Source: a virus. From it: DNA of 33,500 bases. The position numbers and the translations under genes are program-made. Numbering within the stretch: the stretch's first letter is position 1; every line of letters starts with the position of its first letter. This document shows positions 20,285 to 33,130 of the stretch, piece by piece. The stretch is from positions 1-33,500 of IMG/VR virus record IMGVR_UViG_3300044611_000825. The stretch is one strand, 5' to 3'. The notes beneath the pieces were generated by a model, which was not told where the DNA came from, did not search any database, and saw only the letters and a list, made by a program, of their open reading frames with translations.

Positions 20285-20369
20285 CCGTAACCCCTTACCA
20301 GCATTAAACTTACGACTAATTTTCGGGGCCCGGCTTGCCCTAAGTCCTTACGTATTAAAGAGTTACGTC
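20285..20369 (-). repeat. Four-unit dyad element E1
   Basis: Leftmost copy of the intergenic element: units TAACCCCTTA, TTAAACTTA, TAAGTCCTTA and TAAAGAGTTA, with a GC core (TTTTCGGGGCCCGGCTTGCC) in the centre. A-tract/T-tract on its left at 20272-20283. Full description under E8. Confidence 0.72.
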
Positions 20370-20385
20370 TAGTGGTCAATGAATT

Positions 20386-20422
20386 AAAAGAAAAGGCCGC
20401 AGCCGGTTTCCCAGCCACGGCC
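20386..20422 (-). terminator. Rho-independent terminator of the DUF932 gene
   Basis: On the minus strand: GGCCG-tgGCTGG-GAAA-CCGGCtg-CGGCC, a ten-pair stem with a GAAA loop, followed by TTTTCTTTT. It lies 28 bp after the DUF932 stop. Confidence 0.85.
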
Positions 20423-20450
20423 CTTCCCCTTTTCATCGTGACACGAAAAG

Positions 20451-21401
20451 TTAGATAGCGTTCGCAAACTCCAGAGCAGTCGTTAACGCCTTGCTGTTAT
20501 CGTTCGCGTTCTGACCGAACCAGAGCGAATCGAGCCGGTTATCGGTCGTGCGACCCTTGTTATAGTTAAGGTATTCATTGTAGCCGTTATAAGCAGCCCA
20601 CCAAGTACCCCTAACACCCGTTGCTGATTGCTTCGGCCCTTCGACCAGAGCAAGAATCTCGTCCATGATATTTCTGGTGCGAGTCTTAACATCTTCGTCG
20701 GGCGTACCTTCGATGCCCAGCATCGACTTAACATATCGACGAATATCACCCTGATTAAAGTTCTTGCTAGCGAGGAACCGAAACTGTTCCGCAGTAGCCT
20801 CGAACTGGACATTGATATTATCCATAATATCTCGAACCTGTTCCAGATTCTTCTGGCTGGAGCGAGTGTGTCGAATCCGAATCAACTGCGAACCGCTACC
20901 CTTGCTATGGGCCATTGCCATCGTGTTAGCACACACAACACGAATCGGGGTGTAGCCGACGCGAATTGCAGTTGTACCATCATGGCTGTTAGACAGAAGG
21001 ATAAACTTGGAAACCTCATCACCCTTCACGATCTCGCTATTGTCGCGGTTGAGTTGAGCGAGAACCCACACCTTTTGACCGCTATGGAGCGATCCGGCAG
21101 TATGAAGTTGGCACTCGTTAGCATCAAGAAACGGCTGAAACCAATCGAAAGCATCGCTGTTTTGCAGCGGAGTATATCGCGGGCCAACAACACCCAAGAT
21201 AGAGTTGTCGGTTTTGCGATAGGTTGCACGAGCCGGAACCGGAGTACCTTCGCTCGTAAACAAATCCTTAAGACCAACCTCCCAGTCCAGACCAGCGGCG
21301 GTAATTGCCTCGCTAATCGTGGGAGCCTCATCCAACTGATTGCCAAGACCATGCCACGGAGTAGCACCAACAAACATCATCTGTTCAACTGCATGAGCCA
21401 T
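20451..21401 (-). CDS. DUF932 / phage-plasmid-like protein
   Basis: A 316-residue protein; ATG 21401 was chosen (AAGG plus GAG upstream, promoter 21445-21472). Blocks PWHGLGNQLDEAPTISEAIT, AGLDWEVGL, VGPRYTPLQNSDAFDWFQPF, FILLSNSHDGTTAIRVGYTP, RVVCANTMAMAHS match the DUF932 family (TIGR03299), found on phages and plasmids and of unknown biochemical role. GC content is near 50%, well above the left half of the window. Terminated by its own hairpin, so monocistronic. Confidence 0.92.
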   Translation of the reverse strand: MAHAVEQMMFVGATPWHGLGNQLDEAPTISEAITAAGLDWEVGLKDLFTSEGTPVPARATYRKTDNSILGVVGPRYTPLQNSDAFDWFQPFLDANECQLHTAGSLHSGQKVWVLAQLNRDNSEIVKGDEVSKFILLSNSHDGTTAIRVGYTPIRVVCANTMAMAHSKGSGSQLIRIRHTRSSQKNLEQVRDIMDNINVQFEATAEQFRFLASKNFNQGDIRRYVKSMLGIEGTPDEDVKTRTRNIMDEILALVEGPKQSATGVRGTWWAAYNGYNEYLNYNKGRTTDNRLDSLWFGQNANDNSKALTTALEFANAI

Positions 21402-21444
21402 CTCATTAACCTTTCGTGTTATCGTACTTCGTTCAACTCCACCT

Positions 21445-21472
21445 ATTCTACAGTATGTTATCGGCTTGTCAA
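21445..21472 (-). promoter_or_regulatory. Promoter for the DUF932 gene
   Basis: TTGACA, 16-bp spacer, TAGAAT. CCGATAA starts 2 nt after the -35 box; an A-tract/T-tract precedes the -35. Confidence 0.8.
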
Positions 21473-21500
21473 TAGGAAATCTTGCGAAAAAATTTTCTCG

Positions 21501-21585
21501 TCGCAAGGTGTTGATACGTAAGGAGTTACGTCACGCGGGGCCGCCCCGCCTCGCCCTAAGTTCTTGGCGGGCCTGGATTTAAGAA
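21501..21585 (-). repeat. Four-unit dyad element E2
   Basis: Units CAAGGTGTTG, TAAGGAGTTA, TAAGTTCTTG and a degenerate fourth (CTGGATTTAAG). GC core CGCGGGGCCGCCCCGCC. Units 3-4 overlap the last codons of the phosphoribosyltransferase gene. Confidence 0.78.
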
Positions 21586-22062
21586 CAGTGTGCCAAAGTC
21601 ACGTTCAAAAAGTTTAGCGTTCTCGGTGTTGTACGCACACTCATCTGGCATATAACAATAAACGCCAACACACCTAGATTTAGGGCATTCTTCGTAGATA
21701 GTATTCTTAATAAATTTTATAGTAGAACCAGAGCAAACCAGATCATCAACAATAACGTACCTAAAAGGAATCACGCCCTCTATAGCAAAACCACTATATG
21801 ATTTTGTTTCTGGCTTTCTAATTACAACAATATGCTTATCTAGCAATTCTGCTATTTGCGGAACAACCATTAGTCCGCTAGTTCCGCAGCAAACGATACT
21901 ATCAAACTGATTGCTAATTCTACGCAGATCGCAAATTGCCTTAATGATAGCCTTATTACGAATCTTATGATTCAATACCATACAGGTGTGGCTAGCACCT
22001 TGGATAACCTTACCGTCTGCCATTACCCTGAAATCGTCTACGTTCTGATTCAGCGTATTCAT
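21556..22062 (-). CDS. Phosphoribosyltransferase (type I PRTase fold)
   Basis: A 168-residue protein with the PRPP-binding loop RYVIVDDLVCSGSTI at residues 101-115 (hydrophobic strand, DD, small, SGST), plus an upstream CCGTSGLMVVPQIAE phosphate loop. PRTases use PRPP to make nucleotides from bases; the hood region does not identify the base. Plausible role in nucleotide salvage alongside ThyX. Its stop lies inside element E2. It starts just after a tRNA-like sequence. Confidence 0.83.
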   Translation of the reverse strand: MNTLNQNVDDFRVMADGKVIQGASHTCMVLNHKIRNKAIIKAICDLRRISNQFDSIVCCGTSGLMVVPQIAELLDKHIVVIRKPETKSYSGFAIEGVIPFRYVIVDDLVCSGSTIKFIKNTIYEECPKSRCVGVYCYMPDECAYNTENAKLFERDFGTLFLNPGPPRT

Positions 22063-22065
22063 AAG

Positions 22066-22152
22066 AGTGGATGGTACGATTCGAACGTACTACTTGAGAT
22101 AAGAAAGAAAGGATTTATAGAAAAGAGTCTCGTCCCACCGAGAGGCATCCAC
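22066..22152 (-). pseudogene. tRNA-like sequence with lost anticodon stem
   Basis: An 87-nt minus-strand sequence: acceptor GTGGATG/CATCCAC pairs fully, D-arm TCTC-GGTGGGAC-GAGA is good, T-arm GTACG-TTCGAAT-CGTAC is perfect. The middle is a pyrimidine-rich run with no 5-bp anticodon stem in any register I tried. Length suits a class II tRNA (Leu, Ser or Tyr). Either a decayed tRNA or a tRNA-like structure. Lies between the acidic-protein gene and the phosphoribosyltransferase gene. Confidence 0.55.
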
Positions 22153-22156
22153 ATTA

Positions 22157-22345
22157 TTACTCGTCAACAATTTCATCTTCTACATTATTGTAGGAGTTAA
22201 CCCATTCGTCAACGTCGTTCTCGTCGTTAACTTCATACAGTTCATCGTCGGTGTAATCTTCTTCCTCCAGAAGATCATCAAACCCACCGCTCATCATATT
22301 TTCGTAATCAAACGGATAATCTGTTTCTTCGTCATAATAACGCAT
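22157..22345 (-). CDS. Small, highly acidic protein
   Basis: A 62-residue protein, about 45% Asp+Glu (YDEETDYPFDYENMM; LLEEEDYTDDELYEVNDEND), with AAGGAG upstream and a promoter at 22370-22398. Acidic phage proteins of this type sometimes mimic DNA, but no evidence ties this one to such a role. Confidence 0.62.
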   Translation of the reverse strand: MRYYDEETDYPFDYENMMSGGFDDLLEEEDYTDDELYEVNDENDVDEWVNSYNNVEDEIVDE

Positions 22346-22369
22346 AGGCTTACTCCTTTCTAGATTCTT

Positions 22370-22398
22370 ATCTTACACCAAAGCGGTCAAACTGTCAA
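22370..22398 (-). promoter_or_regulatory. Promoter for the acidic protein gene
   Basis: TTGACA, 17-bp spacer, TAAGAT. No CCGAT motif in the spacer. Confidence 0.6.
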
Positions 22399-22808
22399 GA
22401 CCCAAGAATTTTTTCAATCTCGTAATCAGAAGCAAGATTAATTTTATCTTTTTGATTATTTTTTGGAAATTCTTTTCTTAGGTTAAACAAGGTATTGTTT
22501 TCTGTCAGTATATCTGAGGATACTAGGTACACCTTACCATCCTCTAGATCGTATGCGGCAAAGTAGTCAAACATTGAAGCATCATAATAAAACTGATAGT
22601 TTGGGCCACTCTTTTTTAGAGGTATTTTAATACAACCATCCACCGGTGTTATTGCCTTAGATTGTATTTTTATTAGGTTGCCATCTTTTTCGGCAATAAT
22701 ATCTATTTTAGAAATGTCTCCTTCTTCTGTGAATACGGAGTACCCCAGTTTAGTTAATGCTAAACCAACACCGAACTGCCCTATATTACCTTTTCTTTTA
22801 CTGTGCAT
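22395..22808 (-). CDS. PD-(D/E)XK nuclease-like protein
   Basis: A 137-residue protein. N-terminus KGNIGQFGVGLALTKLGYSV, then the acidic strand KIDIIAEKDGNLIKIQSKA giving D36 ... Q49-x-K51, the core of the PD-(D/E)XK fold in group-I-intron-type endonucleases (PDDEXK_5-like) and some Holliday resolvases. The Q in place of E/D in the third motif is tolerated in this group. Preceded by a tRNA-Lys gene on the same strand. Confidence 0.68.
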   Translation of the reverse strand: MHSKRKGNIGQFGVGLALTKLGYSVFTEEGDISKIDIIAEKDGNLIKIQSKAITPVDGCIKIPLKKSGPNYQFYYDASMFDYFAAYDLEDGKVYLVSSDILTENNTLFNLRKEFPKNNQKDKINLASDYEIEKILGS

Positions 22809-22866
22809 TATTATCTCCTAGAGTAGTTTACTAGTAATCTGCTACTCTAGTTATACACCATACTAG

Positions 22867-22939
22867 TGGAGGCGGTGGGACTCGAACCCACGGTTTTCGG
22901 TTTAAAAGACCGCTACTTTAGCCACTAAGTTACGCCTCC
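22867..22939 (-). tRNA. tRNA-Lys (anticodon UUU)
   Basis: Acceptor GGAGGCG/CGCCTCC, D-arm, anticodon stem CGGT/ACCG with loop CTTTTAA, and T-arm GTGGG-TTCGAGT-CCCAC. Discriminator A. Confidence 0.9.
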
Positions 22940-22966
22940 AAATCGGCCAACCACTGAACCATCTTT

Positions 22967-23155
22967 TTAGGCTATATTTTCATACTTAAAAGAACACACA
23001 TCACACCCAGTTTCCCGATTTAACATATCAAAAGCATCGTTCAGATCAAAATCTTGGGGCAGTTGTAGACGCAATTCATTCTCAAGTTGTCGAGTTGTCT
23101 CAACGCCATTCTCAAAACAATCAATAACCATATCGTAGAAGCGAACAGTTTTCAT
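22967..23155 (-). CDS. Small hypothetical protein
   Basis: A 62-residue protein; ATG 23155 with AAAGGAAACC upstream. Helical and acidic (GVETTRQLENELRLQLPQDF), with a CDVCSFKYE end. Its promoter is at 23178-23206. Function unknown. Confidence 0.65.
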   Translation of the reverse strand: MKTVRFYDMVIDCFENGVETTRQLENELRLQLPQDFDLNDAFDMLNRETGCDVCSFKYENIA

Positions 23156-23177
23156 ATTGGTTTCCTTTCTTTCCAAT

Positions 23178-23206
23178 AGTCTACACTACTGTTATCGGCC
23201 TGTCAA
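23178..23206 (-). promoter_or_regulatory. Promoter for the 62-residue gene and tRNA-Lys
   Basis: TTGACA, 17-bp spacer, TAGACT. CCGATAA starts 2 nt after the -35 box. Confidence 0.8.
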
Positions 23207-23221
23207 GAGCAAAACTTTAAG

Positions 23222-23292
23222 CAAAGGCGGAAGGAATCGAACCTTCATCTACGGTTTTGGAGACCGTCATTCTACCGTTGAACTACGCCAAT
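23222..23292 (-). tRNA. tRNA-Trp (anticodon CCA), acceptor with two mismatches
   Basis: Anticodon arm ACGGT-CTCCAAA-ACCGT, T-arm GAAGG-TTCGATT-CCTTC, discriminator G as usual for tRNA-Trp. The acceptor ATTGGCG/CGCCTTT has U-U mismatches at pairs 2 and 3, which is unusual. Confidence 0.82.
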
Positions 23293-23318
23293 GTCCGCAA
23301 CTCTGCGTCAGCCTCCGA

Positions 23319-23405
23319 CGGAATCTGAGGGATTCGAACCCCCGGAGGATTTTAACCCTCGGCGGTTTAGTAAACCGCTGCCTTAAACCACTCGGCCAAG
23401 ATTCC
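23319..23405 (-). tRNA. tRNA-Ser (anticodon ACU)
   Basis: Acceptor GGAATCT/AGATTCC, anticodon arm GCGGT-TTACTAA-ACCGC, long variable arm GAGG..CCTC and T-arm. The long variable arm identifies a serine tRNA. Anticodon ACU (for AGU) is rare; the usual form is GCU. Confidence 0.83.
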
Positions 23406-23408
23406 AAA

Positions 23409-23480
23409 CTGCCCGACTAGGACTCGAACCTAGAACCTACAAATTAACAGTTTGCCGCACTACCATTGTGCTATCGGGCA
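23409..23480 (-). tRNA. tRNA-Asn (anticodon GUU)
   Basis: Acceptor TGCCCGA/TCGGGCA, anticodon loop CTGTTAA, T-arm CTAGG-TTCGAGT-CCTAG, discriminator G. Confidence 0.9.
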
Positions 23481-23485
23481 AAAAA

Positions 23486-23908
23486 TTATACCGCCACTTC
23501 CCTTGGCATAATCTTATAAGTCTTACTACGAATATCAGTGCTTGTCATATTATTCTCTATCTCAAAATCCAAAATCTTTGCCATAACTGTCAAGTCATCT
23601 GCTATTCTATTATAGTCTTTTTCGCAAGAACCAAATGCTACATTACTATTATAGGTCAAACAAGAAAGCAATTCGGCCGATATGTTCTCTATAGCAGCAA
23701 ATTTCATTTTATAACCATACAGGTTAGATCTACTGTTATTAGTCATAAACTCATACATCATTATCCCCATATCGCTAATAGAATTATTAAAAGAACGAAT
23801 AGTAACTTCATTCTTTTTGATAGTATCTATTCTTTGAGCCTCGTCCATCTTGGTGAGACCCCAACTGCCGATTTCTCTTGCCAAGTATATCGCATTACTT
23901 CCAAGCAT
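23486..23908 (-). CDS. Hypothetical helical protein within the tRNA cluster
   Basis: A 140-residue protein; ATG 23908 has AAGGAG 8 nt upstream. All helical with no domain recognised (NNSISDMGIMMYEFMTNNSR; DLTVMAKILDFEIEN). It sits between tRNA-Gln and tRNA-Asn, so the cluster transcript probably also carries this mRNA. Confidence 0.65.
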   Translation of the reverse strand: MLGSNAIYLAREIGSWGLTKMDEAQRIDTIKKNEVTIRSFNNSISDMGIMMYEFMTNNSRSNLYGYKMKFAAIENISAELLSCLTYNSNVAFGSCEKDYNRIADDLTVMAKILDFEIENNMTSTDIRSKTYKIMPREVAV

Positions 23909-23926
23909 AATTATCTCCTTTATTAA

Positions 23927-23997
23927 TTCCGGGGCTAGGATTCGAACCCAGACAAAGAGAACCAAAATCTCTGGTGCTACCGTTACACTACCCCGGA
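23927..23997 (-). tRNA. tRNA-Gln (anticodon UUG)
   Basis: Acceptor TCCGGGG/CCCCGGA, anticodon arm AGAGA-TTTTGGT-TCTCT, T-arm CTGGG-TTCGAAT-CCTAG, discriminator A. Confidence 0.9.
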
Positions 23998-23998
23998 G

Positions 23999-24071
23999 AG
24001 CCGATGATAGGAGTCGAACCTACAACCCACGGTTTACAAAACCGTTGCTCTGCCATTGAAGCTACATCGGC
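23999..24071 (-). tRNA. tRNA-Thr (anticodon UGU)
   Basis: Acceptor GCCGATG/CATCGGC, anticodon arm ACGGT-TTTGTAA-ACCGT, T-arm GTAGG-TTCGACT-CCTAT. First tRNA of the cluster behind promoter 24082-24110. Confidence 0.9.
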
Positions 24072-24075
24072 AATC

Positions 24076-24282
24076 CTACATATCATACTCTTGCTGCCAA
24101 CCCCTGTCAATGTCTCGTCGTGTTCGCTGTCGCTTGGGCCTGCTGTCCATAGTAGTATCCCGATACTCCTTGTGTCCCGTAGGAGCCTCCCAAGGCTGCT
24201 TGGCCTTGACTTTGATCTTGCCGTACTTGCGGCGTGGTCGGGTATCGTCGTTGTTGTGGAGCGTAATCATGCCATTGTCCAT
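24076..24282 (-). CDS. Candidate overlapping gene: basic small phage protein
   Basis: An open frame ending at 24076 with a protein-like basic sequence: RPRRKYGKIKVKAKQPWEAP, GHKEYRDTTMDSRPKRQRTR, then DRGWQQEYDM. Most codons end in G or C, as in other genes of this region. It overlaps the membrane protein gene (24107-24475) over about 175 bp in another frame. The start is uncertain: ATG 24282 has no ribosome site. It may be a real gene with an unusual start or a translationally coupled one. Confidence 0.45.
   Translation of the reverse strand: MDNGMITLHNNDDTRPRRKYGKIKVKAKQPWEAPTGHKEYRDTTMDSRPKRQRTRRDIDRGWQQEYDM
24082..24110 (-). promoter_or_regulatory. Promoter for the tRNA cluster
   Basis: TTGACA, 17-bp spacer, TATGAT, 11 bp upstream of tRNA-Thr. 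No CCGAT motif. Confidence 0.72.
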
Positions 24283-24475
24283 TTTCGTGTAAGTAAAAAA
24301 CCTTGTCAACATTAGGGTCGTAAGCCATTAAGCAGTATTGTACCGGATAAACCACCTTTGTCAATACTTCTTTTTTTGGTAGTTTGGGTATTTTTATATC
24401 ACCCTTTTGATAGTCTTTTACACCATTATAGGCCAAACCTAACAGGGCAATTATCACCCCTATCCACTGGATCAT
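24107..24475 (-). CDS. Membrane-anchored hypothetical protein
   Basis: A 122-residue protein; ATG 24475 has GAGGAG upstream. One N-terminal membrane helix (WIGVIIALLGLAYNG), then a folded part (VVYPVQYCLMAYDPNVDKVF, YLHENGQWHDYAPQQ) and a Gln/Gly/Tyr-rich tail. The tail lies where another frame looks more like protein, so the last 55 residues may owe their composition to that overlapping gene. Function unknown. Confidence 0.6.
   Translation of the reverse strand: MIQWIGVIIALLGLAYNGVKDYQKGDIKIPKLPKKEVLTKVVYPVQYCLMAYDPNVDKVFYLHENGQWHDYAPQQRRYPTTPQVRQDQSQGQAALGGSYGTQGVSGYYYGQQAQATANTTRH
24337..24364 (-). promoter_or_regulatory. Possible internal promoter
   Basis: TTGACA, 16-bp spacer, TACAAT inside the membrane protein gene. 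It could be a second start for the tRNA cluster or the overlapping basic gene, or chance. Confidence 0.4.
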
Positions 24476-24497
24476 TCTTTCTCCTCTGCGTCTGATT

Positions 24498-24526
24498 AGC
24501 ATATCATACTTATCGGTATCCGTCCA
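24498..24526 (-). promoter_or_regulatory. Promoter for the membrane-anchored protein
   Basis: TGGACG, 17-bp spacer, TATGCT. CCGATAA starts 4 nt after the -35 box, even though the -35 is poor. Confidence 0.6.
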
Positions 24527-24544
24527 CCCATTCTTTAATTTTTT

Positions 24545-24627
24545 CTAAGTGGTTGAAGTATAAGGAGTTACGAAGAATCGGAGGCGCCCCGCTAGCCCTA
24601 AGTGCTTACGCCCAAAGGGTTTGCGGT
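24545..24627 (-). repeat. Four-unit dyad element E3
   Basis: Units TAAGTGGTTG, TAAGGAGTTA, TAAGTGCTTA and AAAGGGTTTG at 15-bp steps within each pair. GC core of about 28 bp (GAATCGGAGGCGCCCCGC). Begins 5 bp after the stop of the 80-residue gene. Confidence 0.8.
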
Positions 24628-24632
24628 TAGTT

Positions 24633-24875
24633 TTACTCGTCTTCTCTATTAATTTCCCAGCCCGCTTTTCTACACACCTTATTCAATTTGATTACCTGAG
24701 TTTCTTTATCTGCTGTCGCATAGTCTCTAAAACCACGCTCATCTATATAGAAGTATTCATCTAGAACATCGAACTTATTGCTTTCACCAAGAGTAGTTAC
24801 TGCTGCCTCAAGAGGATTTTTACTTGTTGAGTAGATTAGTTCTAGCGTACCACATTTGACATAATATTTAGACAT
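24633..24875 (-). CDS. Small conserved phage protein
   Basis: An 80-residue protein; ATG 24875 (GAGG upstream) overlaps the kinase-like gene stop. Start SKYYVKCGTLELIYSTSKNP, then FDVLDEYFYIDERGFRDY and a KLNKVCRKAGW end. Resembles a small phage family of unknown function with a strand-helix-strand layout. Confidence 0.7.
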   Translation of the reverse strand: MSKYYVKCGTLELIYSTSKNPLEAAVTTLGESNKFDVLDEYFYIDERGFRDYATADKETQVIKLNKVCRKAGWEINREDE

Positions 24876-25461
24876 AACATTCCTCGCATTTAGGGCAGTC
24901 ACAATAAGCATCATCAACGCCTTGATAGCAAACTTCTGGAAACATATCATCGTCCGTATATCCGATACTTTCTCGTCCAAAGTCAATCGGAACTAATATC
25001 CTAGATTTGCCACGCCTAACATATCCAAAATTACCCTCATGGCAATCAGAGTATTCCACCCCGTAGTCGCTGATTTCTTCCAACAAATCAGATAAAACAT
25101 AATAGTTAGGGCAACATCCAGAATCTATGCAAGACCCCTCACATTCACTATTTCTACACACAAAAGGCTTTGCAATTTCGGTTAAGTAACCCCAATCACT
25201 CAAAACCATTTCGGTTCGATATTTAATCTTGTTATTCTCTATACCATCCACAAAATAGTTAGCAATACGGATTTTGCAAACCGAACTGTAAACCTTTGGG
25301 GCAAGATATGGGGCTAAATGACTTTGAACAGCATGAGCAAACTCGGCCAAACTCTTATTAGGAAAACTCTTGAAACCATATGGTTTTCCAGACAGTTTAT
25401 AGAAAGAGTTCCTGCTACCACTATTCTCATACTTTCCAACATAACTAAATTTAGTAGCCAT
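24868..25461 (-). CDS. Protein-kinase-fold protein with Cys-rich insertions
   Basis: A 197-residue protein with a minimal kinase signature: YSDCHEGNFGYV at residues 138-148 (D..H..N catalytic-loop form seen in aminoglycoside-phosphotransferase-like kinases) and PIDFG at 158-162 (DFG). KPYGFKSF near residue 26-33 could supply the ATP lysine. Two Cys clusters (C102-C117: CRNSECEGSCIDSGCC; C-terminal CDCPKCEEC) may bind zinc. At under 200 residues it is shorter than most kinases. Substrate unknown; could be inactive. Confidence 0.62.
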   Translation of the reverse strand: MATKFSYVGKYENSGSRNSFYKLSGKPYGFKSFPNKSLAEFAHAVQSHLAPYLAPKVYSSVCKIRIANYFVDGIENNKIKYRTEMVLSDWGYLTEIAKPFVCRNSECEGSCIDSGCCPNYYVLSDLLEEISDYGVEYSDCHEGNFGYVRRGKSRILVPIDFGRESIGYTDDDMFPEVCYQGVDDAYCDCPKCEECYV

Positions 25462-25469
25462 GATTATTC

Positions 25470-26177
25470 CTAGTGAGCGGGAAACAGTACGTTAGCCAAA
25501 CCCTTGACGCACATATCACAACTTATACTATCCTTCGTGCCGGTGCAAGTGATAACCGAACGACCGCGACGAATTTCTGGACAAGTCACAAACTTCTCAC
25601 CGTTCAGCACGACCAGTTTGGGCAACGCTTGCCGCCAAGCGTCGGCCTTAGCCTTGTTCTTTGGTCGCTTCGGGGCAATTTTCATATCGCTATCGCACCA
25701 CGCAAACATTTTGAAGCCTTGATTCTTAGCCTCATTCATATCGTTATCGTCGTGAACACTAGCATAGACTGCCATATACTTTTCCAGAGCCACGAGCCGA
25801 CTATCGTAGATATGAGTATAGAACCACATATCGGGCAGACTATCGCCACTAGCAAGAATACTCTCGCAAGCCCACGTTACATTATCAACGTAGTCTGTGT
25901 CAAGTTGACCGTTGAGAAACCAATCGCCGCGTTCATGCCAGCGGATAGATTTCTCACGCTTTTTTGCGTCAAGAATCATGGCACGGATTTTGTTTTTCTC
26001 CGTGACTACGTTAGCAAAACCAGCGACACGGGCGTTTTTGTACTGCCGTTCAGTACCTTCGGCATAACAGCCGTTTCCAAGATAATCGCAATCTGACGGG
26101 CAGGTATCGCCAACCGGACGCGAAACCACAATGCAACCCTTACCCAACTTATCATTACCGTCTGCGGTTTTCATCAT
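25470..26177 (-). CDS. GP88-like Cys-rich phage protein
   Basis: A 235-residue protein (ATG 26174 equally possible) with AGGAG upstream. The N-terminus GCIVVSRPVGDTCPSDCDYL then GNGCYAE gives four cysteines (15, 26, 30, 37); RWHERGDWF near 79-87; C-terminus TCPEIRRGRSVITC then SISCDMC. This layout matches the GP88-type phage family with a likely Fe-S or zinc core; some relatives are compared with radical-SAM-like folds. GC-rich codons. Has its own promoter at 26200-26228. Confidence 0.68.
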   Translation of the reverse strand: MMKTADGNDKLGKGCIVVSRPVGDTCPSDCDYLGNGCYAEGTERQYKNARVAGFANVVTEKNKIRAMILDAKKREKSIRWHERGDWFLNGQLDTDYVDNVTWACESILASGDSLPDMWFYTHIYDSRLVALEKYMAVYASVHDDNDMNEAKNQGFKMFAWCDSDMKIAPKRPKNKAKADAWRQALPKLVVLNGEKFVTCPEIRRGRSVITCTGTKDSISCDMCVKGLANVLFPAH

Positions 26178-26199
26178 TCTTCTCCTAGCGTGTCTGATG

Positions 26200-26228
26200 A
26201 TTCTACACTAGGTTATCGGTACTGTCAA
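26200..26228 (-). promoter_or_regulatory. Promoter for the GP88-like gene
   Basis: TTGACA, 17-bp spacer, TAGAAT. CCGATAA starts 3 nt after the -35 box; an A-tract/T-tract lies upstream. Confidence 0.82.
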
Positions 26229-26256
26229 GGCATTTTCTTGAAGAAATTATTTTTGA

Positions 26257-26339
26257 CGCAAGGTGTTGATGCTAAAGGAGTTACGTCAAGCCGGGCCGCG
26301 CCGGTTCGCCCTAAGTCTTTATCCTCAAAGAGTTTAGGA
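26257..26339 (-). repeat. Four-unit dyad element E4
   Basis: Units CAAGGTGTTG, AAAGGAGTTA, TAAGTCTTTA and AAAGAGTTTAG. GC core AGCCGGGCCGCGCCGGTTCG. It lies between tRNA-Arg and the GP88-like promoter. Confidence 0.8.
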
Positions 26340-26393
26340 GCAGTTCACACATACTCAAAAACTGTTCAGTAGTTTCTGCTTCGTTTTTCATAG

Positions 26394-26465
26394 TAGCCCC
26401 AAGAGGAATCGAACCTCTAACTAGACTTTAGAAGAGTCCTGTTATATCCATTTAACTATGGGGCC
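26394..26465 (-). tRNA. tRNA-Arg (anticodon UCU)
   Basis: Acceptor GGCCCCA/TGGGGCT, anticodon arm GGACT-CTTCTAA-AGTCT, T-arm GAGG-TTCGATT-CCTC. Discriminator A. It reads AGA/AGG. Confidence 0.9.
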
Positions 26466-26909: not shown

Positions 26910-26937
26910 AGTATACAATAGTTATCGGCACTGTCAA
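26910..26937 (-). promoter_or_regulatory. Second tandem promoter
   Basis: TTGACA, 16-bp spacer, TATACT with CCGATAA 3 nt after the -35, one of the best matches in the window. No gene lies between it and the promoter at 26848. Confidence 0.82.
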
Positions 26938-26977: not shown

Positions 26978-27060
26978 TTCTAAGTCATTGGTACATAACG
27001 AGTTACGTCGAGCCGGGCCGGCCCCGTTTACCGTAAGTGCTTACGGCGTAGGGGTTTAGG
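26978..27060 (-). repeat. Four-unit dyad element E5
   Basis: Units TAAGTCATTG, TAACGAGTTA, TAAGTGCTTA and AGGGGTTTAG. GC core GAGCCGGGCCGGCCCC with perfect local palindrome GGGCCGGCCC. Immediately follows the stop of the L7/L12-like gene. Confidence 0.8.
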
Positions 27061-27432: not shown

Positions 27433-27433
27433 C

Positions 27434-27847: not shown

Positions 27848-27853
27848 ACTTAT

Positions 27854-28001: not shown

Positions 28002-28103
28002 GGTCAGACAGATAGATTGGGTTATGCCATACTCGGCCTTGCATTTAACCGCGGCTTCTTTGATATCATTCTGCCAGCGGCCCTCATCTATCGTCTTGAG
28101 TTA

Positions 28104-28131
28104 AATATACATCTATTATCGGCTAAGTCAA
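28104..28131 (-). promoter_or_regulatory. Promoter without a clear gene
   Basis: TTGACT, 16-bp spacer, TATATT with CCGATAA 3 nt after the -35. The next downstream frame (about 30 codons, TIDEGRWQNDIKEAAVKCKA...) has no start codon. Confidence 0.7.
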
Positions 28132-28157
28132 GAGAGAAACTTGAAAAAATTTTTTAG

Positions 28158-28241
28158 TCGTAAAGTGTTGAGAAATAACAACTTAGAACGAATCGGCCCC
28201 GCCGCCCTGTTCGTAAGTCCTTTATTTCCAATCACTTAGGT
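28158..28241 (-). repeat. Four-unit dyad element E6
   Basis: Units TAAAGTGTTG, ACAACTTAG, TAAGTCCTTT and ATCACTTAGG with core ACGAATCGGCCCCGCCGCCC. Its last units overlap the end of the 42-residue zinc protein gene. Confidence 0.75.
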
Positions 28242-28350
28242 GCCACCAGCCACAAGTTCCACACCAATACCACCACACACCACGATCATCTAGCCTATAG
28301 GCCATATCGTTGTTCTCGCCACACTGACAAATATCACTAAGAATTTTCAT
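28222..28350 (-). CDS. Tiny zinc-ribbon-like protein
   Basis: A 42-residue frame from ATG 28350, 14 bp into the end of the upstream gene, with GGAG upstream. Contains CQCGENND and CGTCGWW, a possible four-Cys zinc site. The last codons overlap dyad element E6. Function unknown. Confidence 0.55.
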   Translation of the reverse strand: MKILSDICQCGENNDMAYRLDDRGVWWYWCGTCGWWHLSDWK

Positions 28351-28510
28351 AAACTAACTCCACATATTTATTAACAAGTTCAGGTAGTGAAATCTCATGA
28401 GTACCGATTAGTTCTTTAGTCTTATCTACATTGTTTTTATTCACAGCGGCCATTCTATTTCTGAAAAAACTCAGAATATAGATCATGGCTTTTTCTCTAT
28501 CTTCAGTCAT
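28337..28510 (-). CDS. Small helical hypothetical protein
   Basis: A 57-residue protein from ATG 28510, 8 bp overlap with the upstream gene. Helices DREKAMIYILSFFRNRMAA and SLPELVNKYVELVY. The longer frame to 28591 is rejected for lack of a ribosome site. Confidence 0.6.
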   Translation of the reverse strand: MTEDREKAMIYILSFFRNRMAAVNKNNVDKTKELIGTHEISLPELVNKYVELVYENS

Positions 28511-28769
28511 AAGATGGATAATCCTTCGGGTATGGGTTTTTAGGCGGTTGTGGTTTGTCTTGTCCCTCGTCTGGCATCCACCACGGAGCATCCATACGAT
28601 CTACCACACCACCAATAGTTCCTTCGCCACAAAAAATAAGATGCTCACAATATGGATCAGATCGGTCTATCTTATATGTTCCACGCCACACCCCAATAGG
28701 CTCACCATAATAAATAATCTTCTGGCCATTAATAGGGCGACGATAACCAAAAAAACTAAGCCACTCCAT
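28503..28769 (-). CDS. Hypothetical protein
   Basis: An 88-residue protein: EWLSFFGYRRPINGQKIIYY, GVWRGTYKIDRSDPYCEHLI, VVDRMDAPWWMPDEGQ, then a Pro/Lys-rich tail. The G-D-AW/Wmp pattern resembles a small phage family without known function. Confidence 0.66.
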   Translation of the reverse strand: MEWLSFFGYRRPINGQKIIYYGEPIGVWRGTYKIDRSDPYCEHLIFCGEGTIGGVVDRMDAPWWMPDEGQDKPQPPKNPYPKDYPSYD

Positions 28770-28772
28770 TAT

Positions 28773-28997
28773 TTACCTACCCCTTCCAACAATCACACAT
28801 TTCATACTAATATCACTATCAGTATACTTAACACACTCATGAGGGCCATAATACCATTTATCTTCATCATTCACATTGAATACAATATCCTCAGTTCTCA
28901 GGCTAAGGTCATTAAACCCACCCTCATACCCAAGAGTCAATACTGTCATATCGCCGGGATAGTTCTTCAACTGCTCAATAAGTTCGTTAACGGTCAT
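28773..28997 (-). CDS. Conserved small phage protein
   Basis: A 74-residue protein, start TVNELIEQLKNYPGDMTVLT then LGYEGGFNDLSLR, a recurrent phage pattern (LxExLxxyPgdmxVxxxGYEGGxxD). Function unknown. Confidence 0.72.
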   Translation of the reverse strand: MTVNELIEQLKNYPGDMTVLTLGYEGGFNDLSLRTEDIVFNVNDEDKWYYGPHECVKYTDSDISMKCVIVGRGR

Positions 28998-29000
28998 TAT

Positions 29001-29138
29001 TTAATCCTCTGTGGCATCATCAATATACCACTCGTATCCTAGTTCGTCAATAGTATCTTCTAAAACTTCGATAATCTCGTCTGCTTCTTCACAGTCTGGA
29101 TCAATTCCCGGCATATCAAAAACAACATAAACCTTCAT
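29001..29138 (-). CDS. Small acidic hypothetical protein
   Basis: A 45-residue frame from ATG 29138 with AAGGAAAG upstream, directly before the gene at 28997. Sequence FDMPGIDPDCEEADEIIEVL, then GYEWYIDDA: beta-alpha-beta, acidic. Function unknown. Confidence 0.6.
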   Translation of the reverse strand: MKVYVVFDMPGIDPDCEEADEIIEVLEDTIDELGYEWYIDDATED

Positions 29139-29340
29139 CTGCTTTCCTTGTATTAAAACCAGCGAATCTTTTACGATCCGATTCTATAACCCACCAATAC
29201 CCCGATATTCTGAACCCTTGGAGCAAGGTAAAAATTGATGGAAACCGCCCACGCTGCTTCACTGCTTTCGGGTACCTAATATCAGGCAGTTTATCAGAGG
29301 CAACGGTTACTGGTTGTATTATTCGGACAGGCCGGGACAC
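29116..29340 (-). CDS. Possible small protein, GTG start
   Basis: A 74-residue frame from GTG 29340 without a clear ribosome site; an in-frame stop lies just upstream, so no longer start exists. Aromatic segment LLQGFRISGYWWVIESDRKR looks protein-like. It overlaps the next gene by 23 bp. Promoter 29424-29451 could serve it. Confidence 0.4.
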   Translation of the reverse strand: MSRPVRIIQPVTVASDKLPDIRYPKAVKQRGRFPSIFTLLQGFRISGYWWVIESDRKRFAGFNTRKADEGLCCF

Positions 29341-29423
29341 CTATACGATGAAGCGCCTCAGTTACTCCGCCTATCCGATTGTATTGGTCGTGGTGAGGAC
29401 GCTATCCCCCATAGATTGGCATT

Positions 29424-29451
29424 ACTATACAACGTATAAGCCCGTTGTCAA
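29424..29451 (-). promoter_or_regulatory. Promoter upstream of the 29340 gene
   Basis: TTGACA, 16-bp spacer, TATAGT. No CCGAT motif. Confidence 0.68.
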
Positions 29452-29641
29452 CCCCGGCGATTGCTTCGCTGAACGAGAGGTTTATCGTAATGGCTTATCC
29501 CAATCTAGTCCCTGAGCATGGACCCACGAAAGTTTGTATTGTTAGGACCGATTGTAGAAGACGTTTCCTAGGACATCAACTACCGCTTTTACCGGCTGCT
29601 CGGCCCGACACAACCAACAAGCGTTTGCTTGTTCTTCAATC

Positions 29642-29669
29642 ATTCTACTATCTATTATCGGTTTGTCAA
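29642..29669 (-). promoter_or_regulatory. Promoter for an unassigned transcript
   Basis: TTGACA, 16-bp spacer, TAGAAT with CCGATAA 2 nt after the -35 and a strong A-tract/T-tract upstream. Confidence 0.82.
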
Positions 29670-29698
29670 TAGGGTTTCTTGAAAAAATATTTTTTGAT

Positions 29699-29781
29699 GT
29701 AAAGTGTTGCAGCATAAAGAGTTACGACGAGCCGGGCGGCGCCCCTCGGCCCTAAGTGCTGCCGTAGCAACAACTTAGGGT
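29699..29781 (-). repeat. Four-unit dyad element E7
   Basis: Units TAAAGTGTTG, TAAAGAGTTA, TAAGTGCTGC and a shifted fourth ACAACTTAGG. GC core CGAGCCGGGCGGCGCCCC. Confidence 0.8.
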
Positions 29782-29812
29782 GAGGGTTTCACCGATTGGC
29801 GAAGAAGACAGT

Positions 29813-30217
29813 TTAGATAAGATGAGCCAGACCCGTAGCGAACAGAGCCTGAGCCCCAACCGGCCTACGGCACTTTTCAGTACGTTCCGCATAGAAGTTG
29901 CGAACCGTACCATTGGGCATTTCGCAAGTCACAAGGTGGCGAGTACGCTGAAACTCGGGATCATTCGCACGATAGCGACTACGAGCATTGAGCCTACGAA
30001 TAGAGTAGTCATCCAGAGTGTGAACTTCCACAACCTTCGCAAGATAACGCTCCGGTTCGCCCTGCAAAGGCTGCTTGTAGATGAAATTGTAGATTTCACC
30101 CGGCTTAGCAGATGCAAGCGTACCGTGAACACCACCATAAACAGCATAGGCAAGAGCAGCCACAATAACAGCAGTCACACCAGCCAGAATACCACCAAAC
30201 AGAAGAACATCGTTCAT
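29813..30217 (-). CDS. Membrane-anchored hypothetical protein
   Basis: A 134-residue protein; ATG 30217 behind AAAGGG. N-terminal membrane helix (LLFGGILAGVTAVIVAALAY), then a beta-rich domain (GEIYNFIYKQPLQGEPERYL, AKVVEVHTLDDYSIRRLNAR) that resembles a small KOW/SH3-like fold, with NGTVRNFYAERTE. GC-rich. Function unknown. Confidence 0.66.
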   Translation of the reverse strand: MNDVLLFGGILAGVTAVIVAALAYAVYGGVHGTLASAKPGEIYNFIYKQPLQGEPERYLAKVVEVHTLDDYSIRRLNARSRYRANDPEFQRTRHLVTCEMPNGTVRNFYAERTEKCRRPVGAQALFATGLAHLI

Positions 30218-30259
30218 AAAAACCCTTTCAGTTAGAAAACCCTCAATCAACATATCACA

Positions 30260-30288
30260 AGTCTACACTATGTATCGACTGTTGTCAA
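30260..30288 (-). promoter_or_regulatory. Promoter for the 30217 gene
   Basis: TTGACA, 17-bp spacer, TAGACT, with CGATAC in the spacer. It overlaps the 3' end of the upstream gene. Confidence 0.76.
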
Positions 30289-30536
30289 GCCTCAACATTA
30301 GAAAAATTTTCGGCCCAAAAGTCGTGCATTTCCTCAAGGTTTATGGCACTATCACTCCATGCCACACCATCCTGTGTCTCATATGCAAAAGACGAATTTT
30401 CGTCAATTTCACGCAAGCCAGACTTGAAAGCATCATAATCTTTGCAAGAGGCCGCAAAATCGTTCAGACCTTCATCATTAGCAATCCACAGACAAACATT
30501 CCAAGTCTGGTAATTAGAGTAGCCATTGTAACTCAT
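30285..30536 (-). CDS. DUF7249-like phage protein
   Basis: An 83-residue protein; ATG 30536 behind AAAGGA. The start SYNGYSNYQTWNVCLWIAND then EGL is the hallmark of a widespread phage family (DUF7249-like: NGYxNyxTWNVxLWIdNdxxLY). Function unknown. Confidence 0.85.
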   Translation of the reverse strand: MSYNGYSNYQTWNVCLWIANDEGLNDFAASCKDYDAFKSGLREIDENSSFAYETQDGVAWSDSAINLEEMHDFWAENFSNVEA

Positions 30537-30561
30537 AATTGTTCCTTTCATGTCTGCTGTA

Positions 30562-30589
30562 ATCATACCATATAGATCGGCAAATGCAA
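30562..30589 (-). promoter_or_regulatory. Promoter for the DUF7249-like gene
   Basis: TTGCAT, 16-bp spacer, TATGAT. CCGATCT starts 3 nt after the -35. Confidence 0.68.
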
Positions 30590-30617
30590 GAGGAAATCTT
30601 TAAAAAATTTTTTTAGA

Positions 30618-30702
30618 CGTAAAGTGTTGCTGTGTAAGGAGTTACGACGAGGCCGGCGGCCCCCGCTCGCCCTAAGTGCTTATGCACAAAGGGTTTGCGG
30701 AG
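30618..30702 (-). repeat. Four-unit dyad element E8 (type copy)
   Basis: Units on the plus strand: TAAAGTGTTG, 5 bp, TAAGGAGTTA, a 28-bp GC-rich core (CGACGAGGCCGGCGGCCCCC then GCTCGCCC), TAAGTGCTTA, 5 bp, AAAGGGTTTG. Each unit resembles TAAGNNNTTA and the two pairs are arranged as an inverted dyad, so unit 2 pairs with unit 3 (8 of 10) and the core arms pair (GGCGAG/CTCGTC). It begins 5 bp after a stop codon and is followed on the minus strand by A7T7 and then by the next promoter. Could be a long terminator, a protein-binding array or a replication/segregation site. Confidence 0.85.
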
Positions 30703-30706
30703 AGTT

Positions 30707-30934
30707 TTATTCGAAGTCTACGAAAATTACTTGATTGTAGCCGCGAGGCTTAATCTTGAAACTATCGCCATAATCTTCGGTTTCAGATTTCACACCCGTA
30801 AAGCCAGCCAAAGCCTTGGCCTTGCGAATAATGCTACGCTGAGAATCATACTTGGGTACAAACTCCCAACGCTTGACCCAGCCGTAGTTAGCCTCACCAG
30901 CAAAAGTATCAGTATGGGTTACAACGCACTTCAT
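30707..30934 (-). CDS. Small hypothetical protein
   Basis: A 75-residue protein; ATG 30934 behind AAGGAA. Pattern KCVVTHTDTFAGEANYGWVK, then SIIRKAKALAGFTGVKSETE and a GYNQVIFVDFE end, resembling small phage proteins of unknown role with the same W/R pattern. Confidence 0.68.
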   Translation of the reverse strand: MKCVVTHTDTFAGEANYGWVKRWEFVPKYDSQRSIIRKAKALAGFTGVKSETEDYGDSFKIKPRGYNQVIFVDFE

Positions 30935-30956
30935 TTCTTTTTTCCTTAAAGGTAAA

Positions 30957-31199
30957 TTAGTAATCTTCATTCATTTCGGTATCATCACCATAATATCCGT
31001 AATCCTCATCGGTTCCCCATCCAGCGGAAGATAGGCCACTCTCATGATCCCCATCCATACTATCATCATACGAATCATCCCAACTGTTCTCCAGTTCATC
31101 AGCGTCAACTTCACCGTAATTGAAATCATTGTAATCGTCGTAGTTCATATCGTCCTCGTAAGAGTTGTCAGGATCATAGCACGGGTCAGGATGGCTCAT
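30957..31199 (-). CDS. Highly acidic Asp/Tyr-rich protein
   Basis: An 80-residue protein, about 40% Asp+Glu with many Tyr, Gly and Ser (EDDMNYDDYNDFNYGEVDAD). Likely disordered. ATG 31199 with GAGG upstream; promoter 31230-31258. Function unknown; a similar acidic protein is at 22157. Confidence 0.6.
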   Translation of the reverse strand: MSHPDPCYDPDNSYEDDMNYDDYNDFNYGEVDADELENSWDDSYDDSMDGDHESGLSSAGWGTDEDYGYYGDDTEMNEDY

Positions 31200-31229
31200 T
31201 TCTTTTTCCTCTTTACTAGTGTTATCGGG

Positions 31230-31258
31230 ATTCTATCCTAAAAACTTTAGGCTGTCAA
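31230..31258 (-). promoter_or_regulatory. Promoter with palindromic spacer
   Basis: TTGACA, 17-bp spacer, TAGAAT. The spacer contains the perfect inverted repeat CCTAAA-(3)-TTTAGG (31237-31251), and CCGATAA lies just after the -10 box instead of inside the spacer. Confidence 0.75.
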
Positions 31259-31261
31259 GCC

Positions 31262-31459
31262 CTATTCCACAATCCACGTTTCGCCGTTTTCATCCATCAT
31301 CTCGACAGGAGCAAAATCATCCACACAACCCACAACATCTGCCCAATCCCAAAAGTTGACTTCCACGCTAGGATCGTCAATCGGCTCGACCATAGGCTCA
31401 ATCGTACCCTCTTGGGCCATTTGATCCAGAATCGAGTTGATTTCTTCGAAAGAATACAT
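31262..31459 (-). CDS. Small acidic hypothetical protein
   Basis: A 65-residue protein; ATG 31459 behind AAAGGAAG. Helical start (SFEEINSILDQMAQEG), acidic and aromatic end (NFWDWADVVGCVDDFAP). Function unknown. Confidence 0.65.
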   Translation of the reverse strand: MYSFEEINSILDQMAQEGTIEPMVEPIDDPSVEVNFWDWADVVGCVDDFAPVEMMDENGETWIVE

Positions 31460-31496
31460 TTTTGACTTCCTTTGGGGTTTCACTTGTGATACTACC

Positions 31497-31524
31497 ATTA
31501 TACAGAGTATATCGGCCAAGTCAA
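31497..31524 (-). promoter_or_regulatory. Promoter for the 31459 gene
   Basis: TTGACT, 16-bp spacer, TATAAT. CCGATAT starts 3 nt after the -35. Confidence 0.78.
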
Positions 31525-31561
31525 TAGGGTATCTATAAAAAATCTAAAAAAAATTGTCGAT

Positions 31562-31643
31562 GTAAAGTGTTGCAGCATAAGGACTTACGACGCGGCGGGC
31601 GGCGCGGCCTCGCCCTAAGTTCTTTAGGGACAAGGCTTTACGT
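31562..31643 (-). repeat. Four-unit dyad element E9
   Basis: Units TAAAGTGTTG, TAAGGACTTA, TAAGTTCTTT and AAGGCTTTA, with core CGACGCGGCGGGCGGCGCGG then CCTCGCCC. Ends at the stop of the 103-residue gene. Confidence 0.82.
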
Positions 31644-31954
31644 CAATTTCCCACAACCATACCATCCATAAAAGGATAGGATTTGTCGTTAATTTTCACA
31701 AACCATTCAAAATTCTTTTGATAAACATAACGTGGGCTATACTGGTTGATACGATCCTTAGTGGTCAGAGTTTGCCAGCCACCACTATTGAGTGTATAAG
31801 TACCATCTTCGTGAATCTTGACCACATAGGTACTGTGCAGCATAATACCCACGCTACCATCATGCAGAATCTCAGCGTAAGTATTATTACCAACCTTGCG
31901 ACGGTTAGCGTTACGCTTGCCACGAACCATCTTAACCGCTTCGGAATGATTCAT
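31643..31954 (-). CDS. Conserved phage hypothetical protein
   Basis: A 103-residue protein with a basic start (AVKMVRGKRNANRRKVGNNT), then strands GIMLHSTYVVKIHEDGTYTL NS and WQTLTTKDRIN, resembling a phage family that carries the pattern 'G..KR....RKV.NNTY...L.DG.v.v.lHsT.Vv....g.y.L.sgGW.T.TTKdRIN'. I recognise this pattern in diverse phages but not its role. Confidence 0.76.
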   Translation of the reverse strand: MNHSEAVKMVRGKRNANRRKVGNNTYAEILHDGSVGIMLHSTYVVKIHEDGTYTLNSGGWQTLTTKDRINQYSPRYVYQKNFEWFVKINDKSYPFMDGMVVGN

Positions 31955-32103
31955 TACTTGTTTTCCTTTTGCTTGCTTTCCAACGTTTCACGATACAGTT
32001 TTTCCAGAAACTTTACTTGAGCCAAAGCACGACCAGTCTCTTGCTTCATCCTGAGTTCCGTTTTCTGAAATCCACTTACTGGCTTCTTCTTCGTTTTCAT
32101 CAT
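31954..32103 (-). CDS. Small basic helical protein
   Basis: A 49-residue protein; ATG 32103 (or 32100) behind AGGAG. Lys/Arg-rich helix with heptad tendency (TGRALAQVKFLEKLYRETLE). TAATG overlap with the next gene. Function unknown. Confidence 0.6.
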   Translation of the reverse strand: MMKTKKKPVSGFQKTELRMKQETGRALAQVKFLEKLYRETLESKQKENK

Positions 32104-32119
32104 CTTTCTCCTACACTCG

Positions 32120-32148
32120 ATTATATAGTATAGATCGGCAAGAGTCAA
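32120..32148 (-). promoter_or_regulatory. Promoter for the 32103/31954 operon
   Basis: TTGACT, 17-bp spacer, TATAAT. CCGATCT starts 4 nt after the -35. Confidence 0.78.
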
Positions 32149-32177
32149 GCATAATCTTTAGAAGATTTTTATTCTGT

Positions 32178-32260
32178 TCCTAAGTCGTTATCACATAAGC
32201 ACTTAGAGCAAATTTTCGCCGCCGGCCTCGCTCTAAGTCTTTTAGTAGCAAGGGTTTAGG
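32178..32260 (-). repeat. Four-unit dyad element E10
   Basis: Units TAAGTCGTTA, TAAGCACTTA, TAAGTCTTTT and AAGGGTTTAG. Core GAGCAAATTTTCGCCGCCGG is less GC-rich on its left side. Confidence 0.78.
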
Positions 32261-32287
32261 TTCAGTTTTTTGTTCAGTGGTGAACGA

Positions 32288-32629
32288 TTATTCATCGTCC
32301 CCTTTGAACGCGAAGGGCGAAACTTCCTCGCCACACGCGAGAATCGCAGCATACTGGTGGGCAAGAGCCTCAATGCGTTCCTGCGAACCCGGCTTTCCAG
32401 CCTTTACGATCATGGTATCCTCACCACCCACAAATCGCGGATCGGACTTCTCTTTCTTCACTTTGCCAAGGTTGCGAAGTGCCTTGCGGTTGAACTTCAA
32501 AACCTTCTCACTCTTGATCGGCCCATACTCACCATCCGCCAGAGAGGGTTGGTGGGGAATCGCAATCCCAAGAAAGCACATACGAGCCTGTTTCTTAGCG
32601 TTTTCGATAATCTCAAATTTCTGTTTCAT
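32288..32629 (-). CDS. Hypothetical phage protein
   Basis: A 113-residue protein; ATG 32629 behind AAGGGAAAA. Blocks MCFLGIAIPHQPSLADGEYG, KVLKFNRKALRNLGKV and FVGGEDTMIVKAGKPGSQER. GC-rich codons as in the neighbouring cassettes. No family recognised. Confidence 0.66.
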   Translation of the reverse strand: MKQKFEIIENAKKQARMCFLGIAIPHQPSLADGEYGPIKSEKVLKFNRKALRNLGKVKKEKSDPRFVGGEDTMIVKAGKPGSQERIEALAHQYAAILACGEEVSPFAFKGDDE

Positions 32630-32652
32630 GTTTTCCCTTTCGTGTTGGTTTG

Positions 32653-32682
32653 ATTCTAGCAAAACTCTTTGGTGAGTGTCAA
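32653..32682 (-). promoter_or_regulatory. Promoter for the 32629 gene
   Basis: TTGACA, 18-bp spacer, TAGAAT. No CCGAT motif. Confidence 0.65.
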
Positions 32683-32685
32683 ACC

Positions 32686-32874
32686 CTACTTTGAATAATT
32701 GTAGGCATCCAAACCCAACTTGCGACGAATCACGCGAATGGTTTGCAGATCCTCAATGAGCATCTTGGTCAGATTCTCACTTACTCCGCTTTCCACCAGA
32801 GAAGCCATATTCTGCTCACTGGTTTTCAGCAGAGCAGCCACAACGATTTCTTCACTCACAGTCAACTTTTCCAT
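32686..32874 (-). CDS. Small helical hypothetical protein
   Basis: A 62-residue protein (EEIVVAALLKTSEQNMASLV; LTKMLIEDLQTIRVIRRKLG), all helical. Weak GAAAG ribosome site. Promoter at 32901-32929. Function unknown. Confidence 0.63.
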   Translation of the reverse strand: MEKLTVSEEIVVAALLKTSEQNMASLVESGVSENLTKMLIEDLQTIRVIRRKLGLDAYNYSK

Positions 32875-32900
32875 CTTTCACTCTCTCTTTCTTATGCTGA

Positions 32901-32929
32901 ATTATACCTAAGAGATCGTCAAAAGTCAA
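32901..32929 (-). promoter_or_regulatory. Promoter for the 32874 gene
   Basis: TTGACT, 17-bp spacer, TATAAT with CGATCT in the spacer. Confidence 0.72.
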
Positions 32930-32956
32930 ACGCAATGTTTAGAAAATTATCCGATT

Positions 32957-33012
32957 TTCCCTAAGTCCTTATCTGGCCGGCTGTTGCGTCTAACCGTTTT
33001 CTTTAGGTGCTA
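32957..33012 (-). repeat. Partial dyad element E11
   Basis: A unit TAAGTCCTTA, a short remnant of GC core (GGCCGGCTG) and a distant TTTAGGTGCTA. Looks like a decayed or shortened copy, about 30 bp from E12. Confidence 0.5.
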
Positions 33013-33043
33013 CAGTGGACACATGGTATCGTGAGAAATTGCT

Positions 33044-33130
33044 CGTAAAGCGTTGGTATCAAACAACTTACGGCAAGCGGGGCGGCGCCGGCTCGCCCTA
33101 AGTCCTTATGTGTCAACCACTTAGGTTAAG
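33044..33130 (-). repeat. Four-unit dyad element E12
   Basis: Units TAAAGCGTTG, ACAACTTA, TAAGTCCTTA and CCACTTAGG, with core CGGCAAGCGGGGCGGCGCCG. The last unit runs into the stop of the 25-residue gene. The AT tract and promoter that should follow it are weak here. Confidence 0.75.

Follow-up and report, generated by a model that had tools for sequence, protein, structure and literature searches.

Phage DNA in the 33.5-kb stretch analysed here (the window, an IMG/VR virus record) carries repeats of 78 bp that are real and not a product of chance. We judge the chances to be somewhat better than even that each repeat is an upstream regulatory site of the class I type, presenting a double docking site to a protein that is probably an activator; it is the relation of the element to its promoter that makes this function likely. 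The window is 100% identical, in reverse orientation, to positions 95342–128841 of a 152,676-bp phage contig (G017; IMGVR_UViG_3300034061_005520). A search of the remainder of that genome, as a preliminary description of the DNA had proposed, placed 14 copies, all of them between 93.5 and 108.5 kb; the remaining 137 kb has none.

The architecture is rigid. The preliminary description saw four units separated by 5 bp, a core of about 28 bp and again 5 bp, and this holds exactly: all window copies follow a 10-5-10-28-10-5-10 layout with zero indels, and the second unit pair starts 53 bp after the first. The strict unit consensus is YAAGNNNTTR and the core consensus is CGWCRAR-N3-GGCCGGCC-N3-YTYGNC, such that each element contains two like modules of 25 bp (YAAGNNNTTR-N5-YAAGNNNTTR with CGNCRA flanks) around a GC-rich centre. 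When a 25-bp module matrix made without the core was used for scanning, 529 of about 567 adjacent module pairs (pairs no more than 150 bp apart) were spaced by 53 bp, which corresponds to 5.05 helical turns of B-DNA. A full-length weight matrix trained on ten window copies (cut-off, 25 bits) detected 553 copies, 452 of them distinct, in 948 kb of related contigs; the reversed sequence of the same 948 kb yielded 0 copies above 25 bits.

Where at least eleven full copies and one partial had been counted, the window has ten strong copies and a single weaker one; what was taken for a twelfth is no more than an isolated unit around 32960. The strong copies all lie on the plus strand, at 21504–21581, 24546–24623, 26259–26336, 26981–27058, 28161–28238, 29700–29777, 30620–30697 (the top-scoring window copy, 103 bits with the first matrix), 31563–31640, 32181–32258 and 33046–33123. 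The weak boundary copy (20288–20365) scores 57 bits in minus orientation, better than in the opposite one, and no clear promoter was found adjoining it. The single orientation reported at first therefore applies to 10 of the 11 window copies, but not to all relatives. Placement between genes was described correctly, as only two window copies run into the preceding gene, that at 28161 over its last 17 bp and that at 21504 over its last 26 bp, and so was the start close behind a stop codon, with most window copies beginning within about 36 bp of the stop of the upstream gene. A wandering unit step and equal occurrence inside genes had been named as the marks of a chance pattern; both the step and the intergenic placement are strict.

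The promoters beside these elements face outward on the minus strand. A promoter scan detected TTGACA-16-TAGAAT at 21445–21472 (31 bp to the element edge), TTGACA-17-TAGAAT at 26200–26228 (30 bp), TTGACA-16-TATACT at 26910–26937 (43 bp), TTGACT-16-TATATT at 28104–28131 (29 bp), TTGACA-16-TAGAAT at 29642–29669 (30 bp), TTGACT-16-TATAAT at 31497–31524 (38 bp) and TTGACT-17-TATAAT at 32120–32148 (32 bp). Two further candidates, both under the scan threshold, were read from the flanks: a weak one, TGGACG-17-TATGCT, at 24498–24526 (19 bp) and TTGCAT-16-TATGAT at 30562–30589 (30 bp). For the element at 33046–33123, the closest outward promoter (32929–32901) is 116 bp off.

Across the related contigs, a TTGACA/TATAAT-type promoter faces away from unit 1 in 308 of 438 unique flanked copies, many of the element-linked promoters being good σ70 consensus matches. 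The distance between the element edge and the −35 box peaks at 20, 30–31, 41, 51 and 61 bp, with a period of 10.5 bp, which places a palindromic, conserved site upstream of −35 at distances of whole helical turns. This phasing (R = 0.71 in 162 clusters after 85% clustering) was retained after clustering at 75% identity (80 cases; Rayleigh power 39, against a maximum of 11 in 200 null sets) and at 70% identity (44 cases; power 23, against a maximum of 9 in 200 null sets), and recurred, at a period set in advance, among 34 further copies (power 7.9, p ~4e-4). Phase was slightly tighter to the −35 box (0.712) than to the −10 box (0.677) in the 162 clusters. Shared descent accounts for part of the −35 phasing, yet the signal is robust to strong clustering. 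Promoters on the unit-4 side again lie at distances near 20 and 30 bp, which fits the symmetry of the site. The window promoters at 38 and 43 bp are 2–3 bp out of phase.

A site on one helix face, at whole turns upstream of a promoter, classically indicates a protein that touches RNA polymerase. The invariant DNA geometry, the conserved bases and the absence of compensatory changes argue for one option in the preliminary description, that of a protein-binding site; promoter-locked and helix-phased placement gives no support to another, that of a distributed origin or partition site. Immediately beyond unit 1, elements of the 30-bp class have an A/T tract, AAAAAATTTTTT; those of the 41-bp class keep an AT-rich stretch close to the element edge. 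Such a position would be expected if the C-terminal domain (CTD) of the RNA polymerase α subunit, or an AT-hook, settled on the DNA next to the bound protein. If the −35 box is set at −36, the outer unit centres would fall at about −61.5, −71.5, −82.5, −92.5 and −102.5.

From these features we infer protein binding, RNA polymerase contact and activation in preference to repression. Each 78-bp element would act as a double docking site, its two 25-bp modules, five helical turns apart, presenting protein sites around the GC-rich centre. Bound upstream of a σ70-type promoter on one fixed helix face, the protein would touch host RNA polymerase, most simply the α CTD by way of the adjacent A/T tract, and clustered transcription units, probably early or accessory, would be switched together. 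The upstream series of class I sites for the activator CRP in Escherichia coli runs through −61.5, −71.5 and further full turns. Those sites, described at −61.5 or further upstream (PMC2859248), resemble the phage element in lying near −61.5 or −71.5 on the same helix face with an A/T region for the α CTD before −35, but they are single 22-bp dyads, whereas the element joins two double dyads rigidly within 78 bp, is clustered in up to 16 copies and is seen in phages only. A phage precedent is protein p4 of phi29, which binds an upstream inverted repeat, contacts the α CTD and activates or represses. The proposed α CTD contact at an upstream inverted repeat would be shared with p4, which differs in having one regulatory region per genome and another sequence and geometry.

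The same placement could serve a phase-dependent repressor, which would silence strong early promoters either through contact with RNA polymerase already bound there or through looping. Phasing is equally compatible with contact-dependent repression; near-consensus promoters with A/T tracts are typical of strong early promoters that need to be shut off, and sites adjoin both σ70 and σ54-like promoters. Nearly all sites, however, lie at least about 20 bp upstream of −35, which makes simple occlusion unlikely, and repressors that act by contact from upstream are less common than class I activators. We therefore regard repression as the most serious competitor but an unlikely one, and activation as the more likely of the two. 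Near-consensus σ70 promoters, for their part, are not obviously in need of an activator, and their strength calls for caution over activation.

Less probable still is a roadblock terminator or insulator, at which bound protein would halt polymerase arriving from the upstream gene, in the manner of mycobacteriophage stoperator repressors. Elements do begin just behind stop codons and divide transcription units, and no intrinsic terminators were found in their place. Helical phasing to the downstream −35 is not predicted by a roadblock, and we know of no report of stoperators phased to promoters. Like the 78-bp element, the stoperators of cluster A mycobacteriophages recur many times between genes as sites for a single protein and favour one orientation, but they are asymmetric 13-bp monomers that follow the direction of transcription, in contrast to the near-symmetric element, which has promoters on either side (PMC9283540).

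Elements also mark places at which gene content changes. When the genes upstream of two elements are related, those downstream are unrelated in 2162 pairs and related in 1753, and in some pairs (for example, L043:11372 and L057:1864) identity drops from near 100% to background within the GC core. Both observations would be expected if the main role of the element were to serve as a boundary for homologous recombination in the shuffling of promoter–gene cassettes, with regulation secondary. We consider such a main role improbable, as homology alone would not preserve the unit bases, the 53-bp spacing or the helical phase to the promoter; cassette shuffling is likely to be a by-product of the element. 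The promoter-early stem-loop (PeSL) cassettes of T4-type phages, which reportedly include a stem-loop terminator, are the closest parallel for exchange, being intergenic units beside an early promoter with adjacent gene cassettes exchanged at the core. Arbiol et al. 2010 is the source cited for these cassettes in PMC4177764. Recombination junctions at the element and the presence of a promoter are as in PeSL units; the stem-loop terminator is absent, pairing is unconserved and length is fixed.

Least of all do the data favour a structure that acts single-stranded. In the preliminary description the elements were called structured, with selection on form and long terminators among the options, and compensating changes in the core arms were the sign to look for. 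These are absent. For the full hairpin in 51 copies, 64.4% of cells were paired, compared with 66.5% in shuffles, and the covariation score (0.121, compared with 0.145) fell under that of 500 of 500 shuffles. In 452 distinct copies mutual information was strongest between neighbouring positions, and no symmetric position pairs appeared in the list of top values. No U-tract follows the GC core on the transcribed strand, only a weak match on the minus strand, at 24591–24579, falling inside an element, and Rfam returned no match to the element, gathering scores being reached by tRNA and tmRNA only. The lack of compensatory changes, fewer even than in shuffles, speaks against selection for a hairpin, whether in RNA or as a cruciform; the arms resemble one another through the conserved bases that both retain and not through pairing. 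The palindromic core of the preliminary description thus survives as a consensus (the GGCCGGCC centre with CGNCRA arms), but individual cores pair poorly. Despite that palindromic consensus, a long terminator, mRNA 3′ stabiliser or REP-like hairpin is very improbable given the covariation and mutual-information results, the missing U-tract and Rfam family, and the fixed 78-bp length.

Two other repeat families were compared by resemblance only. REPs tagged with GTAG or CGTC, reported in Planctomycetes too (PMC3733652), are likewise short palindromes that recur in many places between genes, and some begin with CGTC, but they are chromosomal stem-loops of 20–40 bp with a tag at one end, and no fixed relation to promoters is known for them. 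The unit consensus YAAGNNNTTR does not fit the boxes of integron attC sites, which are RYYYAAC/GTTRRRY.

In five genomes (G033, G034, G013, G014 and G018), single modules occur that stop at the GC centre, and several of these half-elements adjoin TTGGCAY-N5-TTGCT motifs. The strict form, TGGCAYN5TTGCW, has 183 sites in 3.78 Mb, in partly overlapping loci, against an expectation of about 7 estimated from base counts; 132 of the 183 are no more than 300 bp from an element, the overlap of loci meaning that not all counts are independent. The motif would fit σ54 promoters, and some copies are inverted repeats. A phage-encoded σ54 activator was rejected, as none was found in 12 genomes. In a minority of cases elements, and in some relatives half-elements, precede such −24/−12 motifs, a placement that a class I activator leaves unexplained.

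Our lead candidate for the binding protein is a product of 65–76 residues that combines a predicted helix–turn–helix (HTH; YKKW...MVRRQRRKL) with an AT-hook (RGRPRK). It is present in 24 of 30 element-bearing contigs, and its gene, which adjoins the cluster where checked, is divergent from an operon encoding a σ70 region-2 protein and a D5-like HTH protein. In G017 the gene occupies 89428–89658. The recognition helix, MVRRQRRKL, is near-invariant. The structural model has three helices that form an HTH, and a tail that is disordered; among solved folds the GcrA DNA-binding domain came closest, at a level that is not significant (TM 0.83 by target, E 0.39). The protein does not count as a proven binder: the clade B phages G011, G013, G014 and G018 carry elements without it, and it occurs in G033 and G034, where half-elements alone were found. 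The D5-like protein (phrog_323; G017:87760–88575) is encoded in all four compared genomes and in G013. It was rejected as the binder because its HTH varies between clades, it lies upstream of terminase genes, where small terminases often sit, and no fold was matched significantly in a search with it. A unit variant in G035, TAAGAGTTTA, was not matched by recognition-helix changes in either candidate protein.

The element is not confined to one phage. A 19-base element pattern has matches in at least 118 viral contig stretches besides the window, element-bearing contigs reach 244 kb, and four compared genomes (33.6–49.1% G+C) have clusters of 7–16 elements per roughly 10–20 kb. A capsid-region marker protein has matches in at least 600 viral stretches, which indicates that the element-bearing lineage is abundant. 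Among bacterial and archaeal genomes of 84,980 species the only match was on a 3.6-kb MAG contig, and a host chromosomal element was rejected. A DUF1501 protein (Pfam) encoded by one relative, and the N-terminal LENRSLL of the G017 subtilase, hint at a possible host in the Planctomycetota. A known phage element was also rejected: INPHARED contains no near DNA match to a 13.5-kb query and no close DNA relative, a consensus element gave no distant match, and literature searches found no account of this element. No cultured phage near to this lineage in DNA sequence came to light. It had not been recognised from any described phage at the outset, and it is apparently a widespread phage regulatory element that has so far gone undescribed.

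More tentatively, the elements may constitute a new class of phage enhancer, in which a 78-bp double-module site for a protein of the phage lineage, on a fixed helix face, would serve σ70-type and, as full or half elements, σ54-type promoters of an uncultured and possibly planctomycete phage clade, with cassettes swapped at the core. One element family stands beside two different promoter types, and its helical phasing makes the mechanism directly testable. The 19-base pattern provides a marker for finding these phages. From sequence alone, the analysis has uncovered a regulatory code of genome scale in a phage lineage that is abundant.

In G035, a viral contig represented here by two loci (L289 and L290), most elements have in common a concerted unit variant, with U2 reading TAAGAGTTTA and U3 reading YAAAGTCTTA, and this pattern of sequence change suggests one trans-acting factor per genome. 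In the window, a weak, lone half-element lies at 19808–19846, beyond the element range noted first. Among 84,980 species genomes, the element had only one match, in an Alphaproteobacteria MAG, on the 3,601-bp contig RFNS01000094.1 (L257), which is probably a misbinned phage fragment.

Beside half or full elements in five contigs (G033, G034, G013, G014 and G018; loci L258–L265, L276–L288 and L292–L293), we observed dense −24/−12 (sigma54-type) motifs, TTGGCAYN5TTGCT, which are unusual for phages; some of those near elements form inverted repeats. Window promoters recurrently carry a CGATAA motif in the −35/−10 spacer (for example, 21472–21445, 29669–29642 and 23206–23178), both with and without elements. 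Two separate phage proteins (L125:10826–11473 and L129:8568–9221) match region 4 and region 2 of sigma70, respectively, and may represent a split late sigma factor.

The window also encodes a tmRNA (tag GTTQLALAA) and eight tRNAs (1749–2105, 2339–2411 and 22866–26465), the tRNA genes mostly within the element cluster, together with minus-strand genes for a ferredoxin-family protein (588–1241), a UvdE-type UV endonuclease (5612–6526) and a ThyX thymidylate synthase (7674–8327). Finally, two predicted proteins, a DUF1501 protein in contig G011 (L155:3356–4639) and a subtilase with the N-terminus LENRSLL (L129:12062–13384) in G017, the contig containing the window, hint that the hosts may be planctomycetes.
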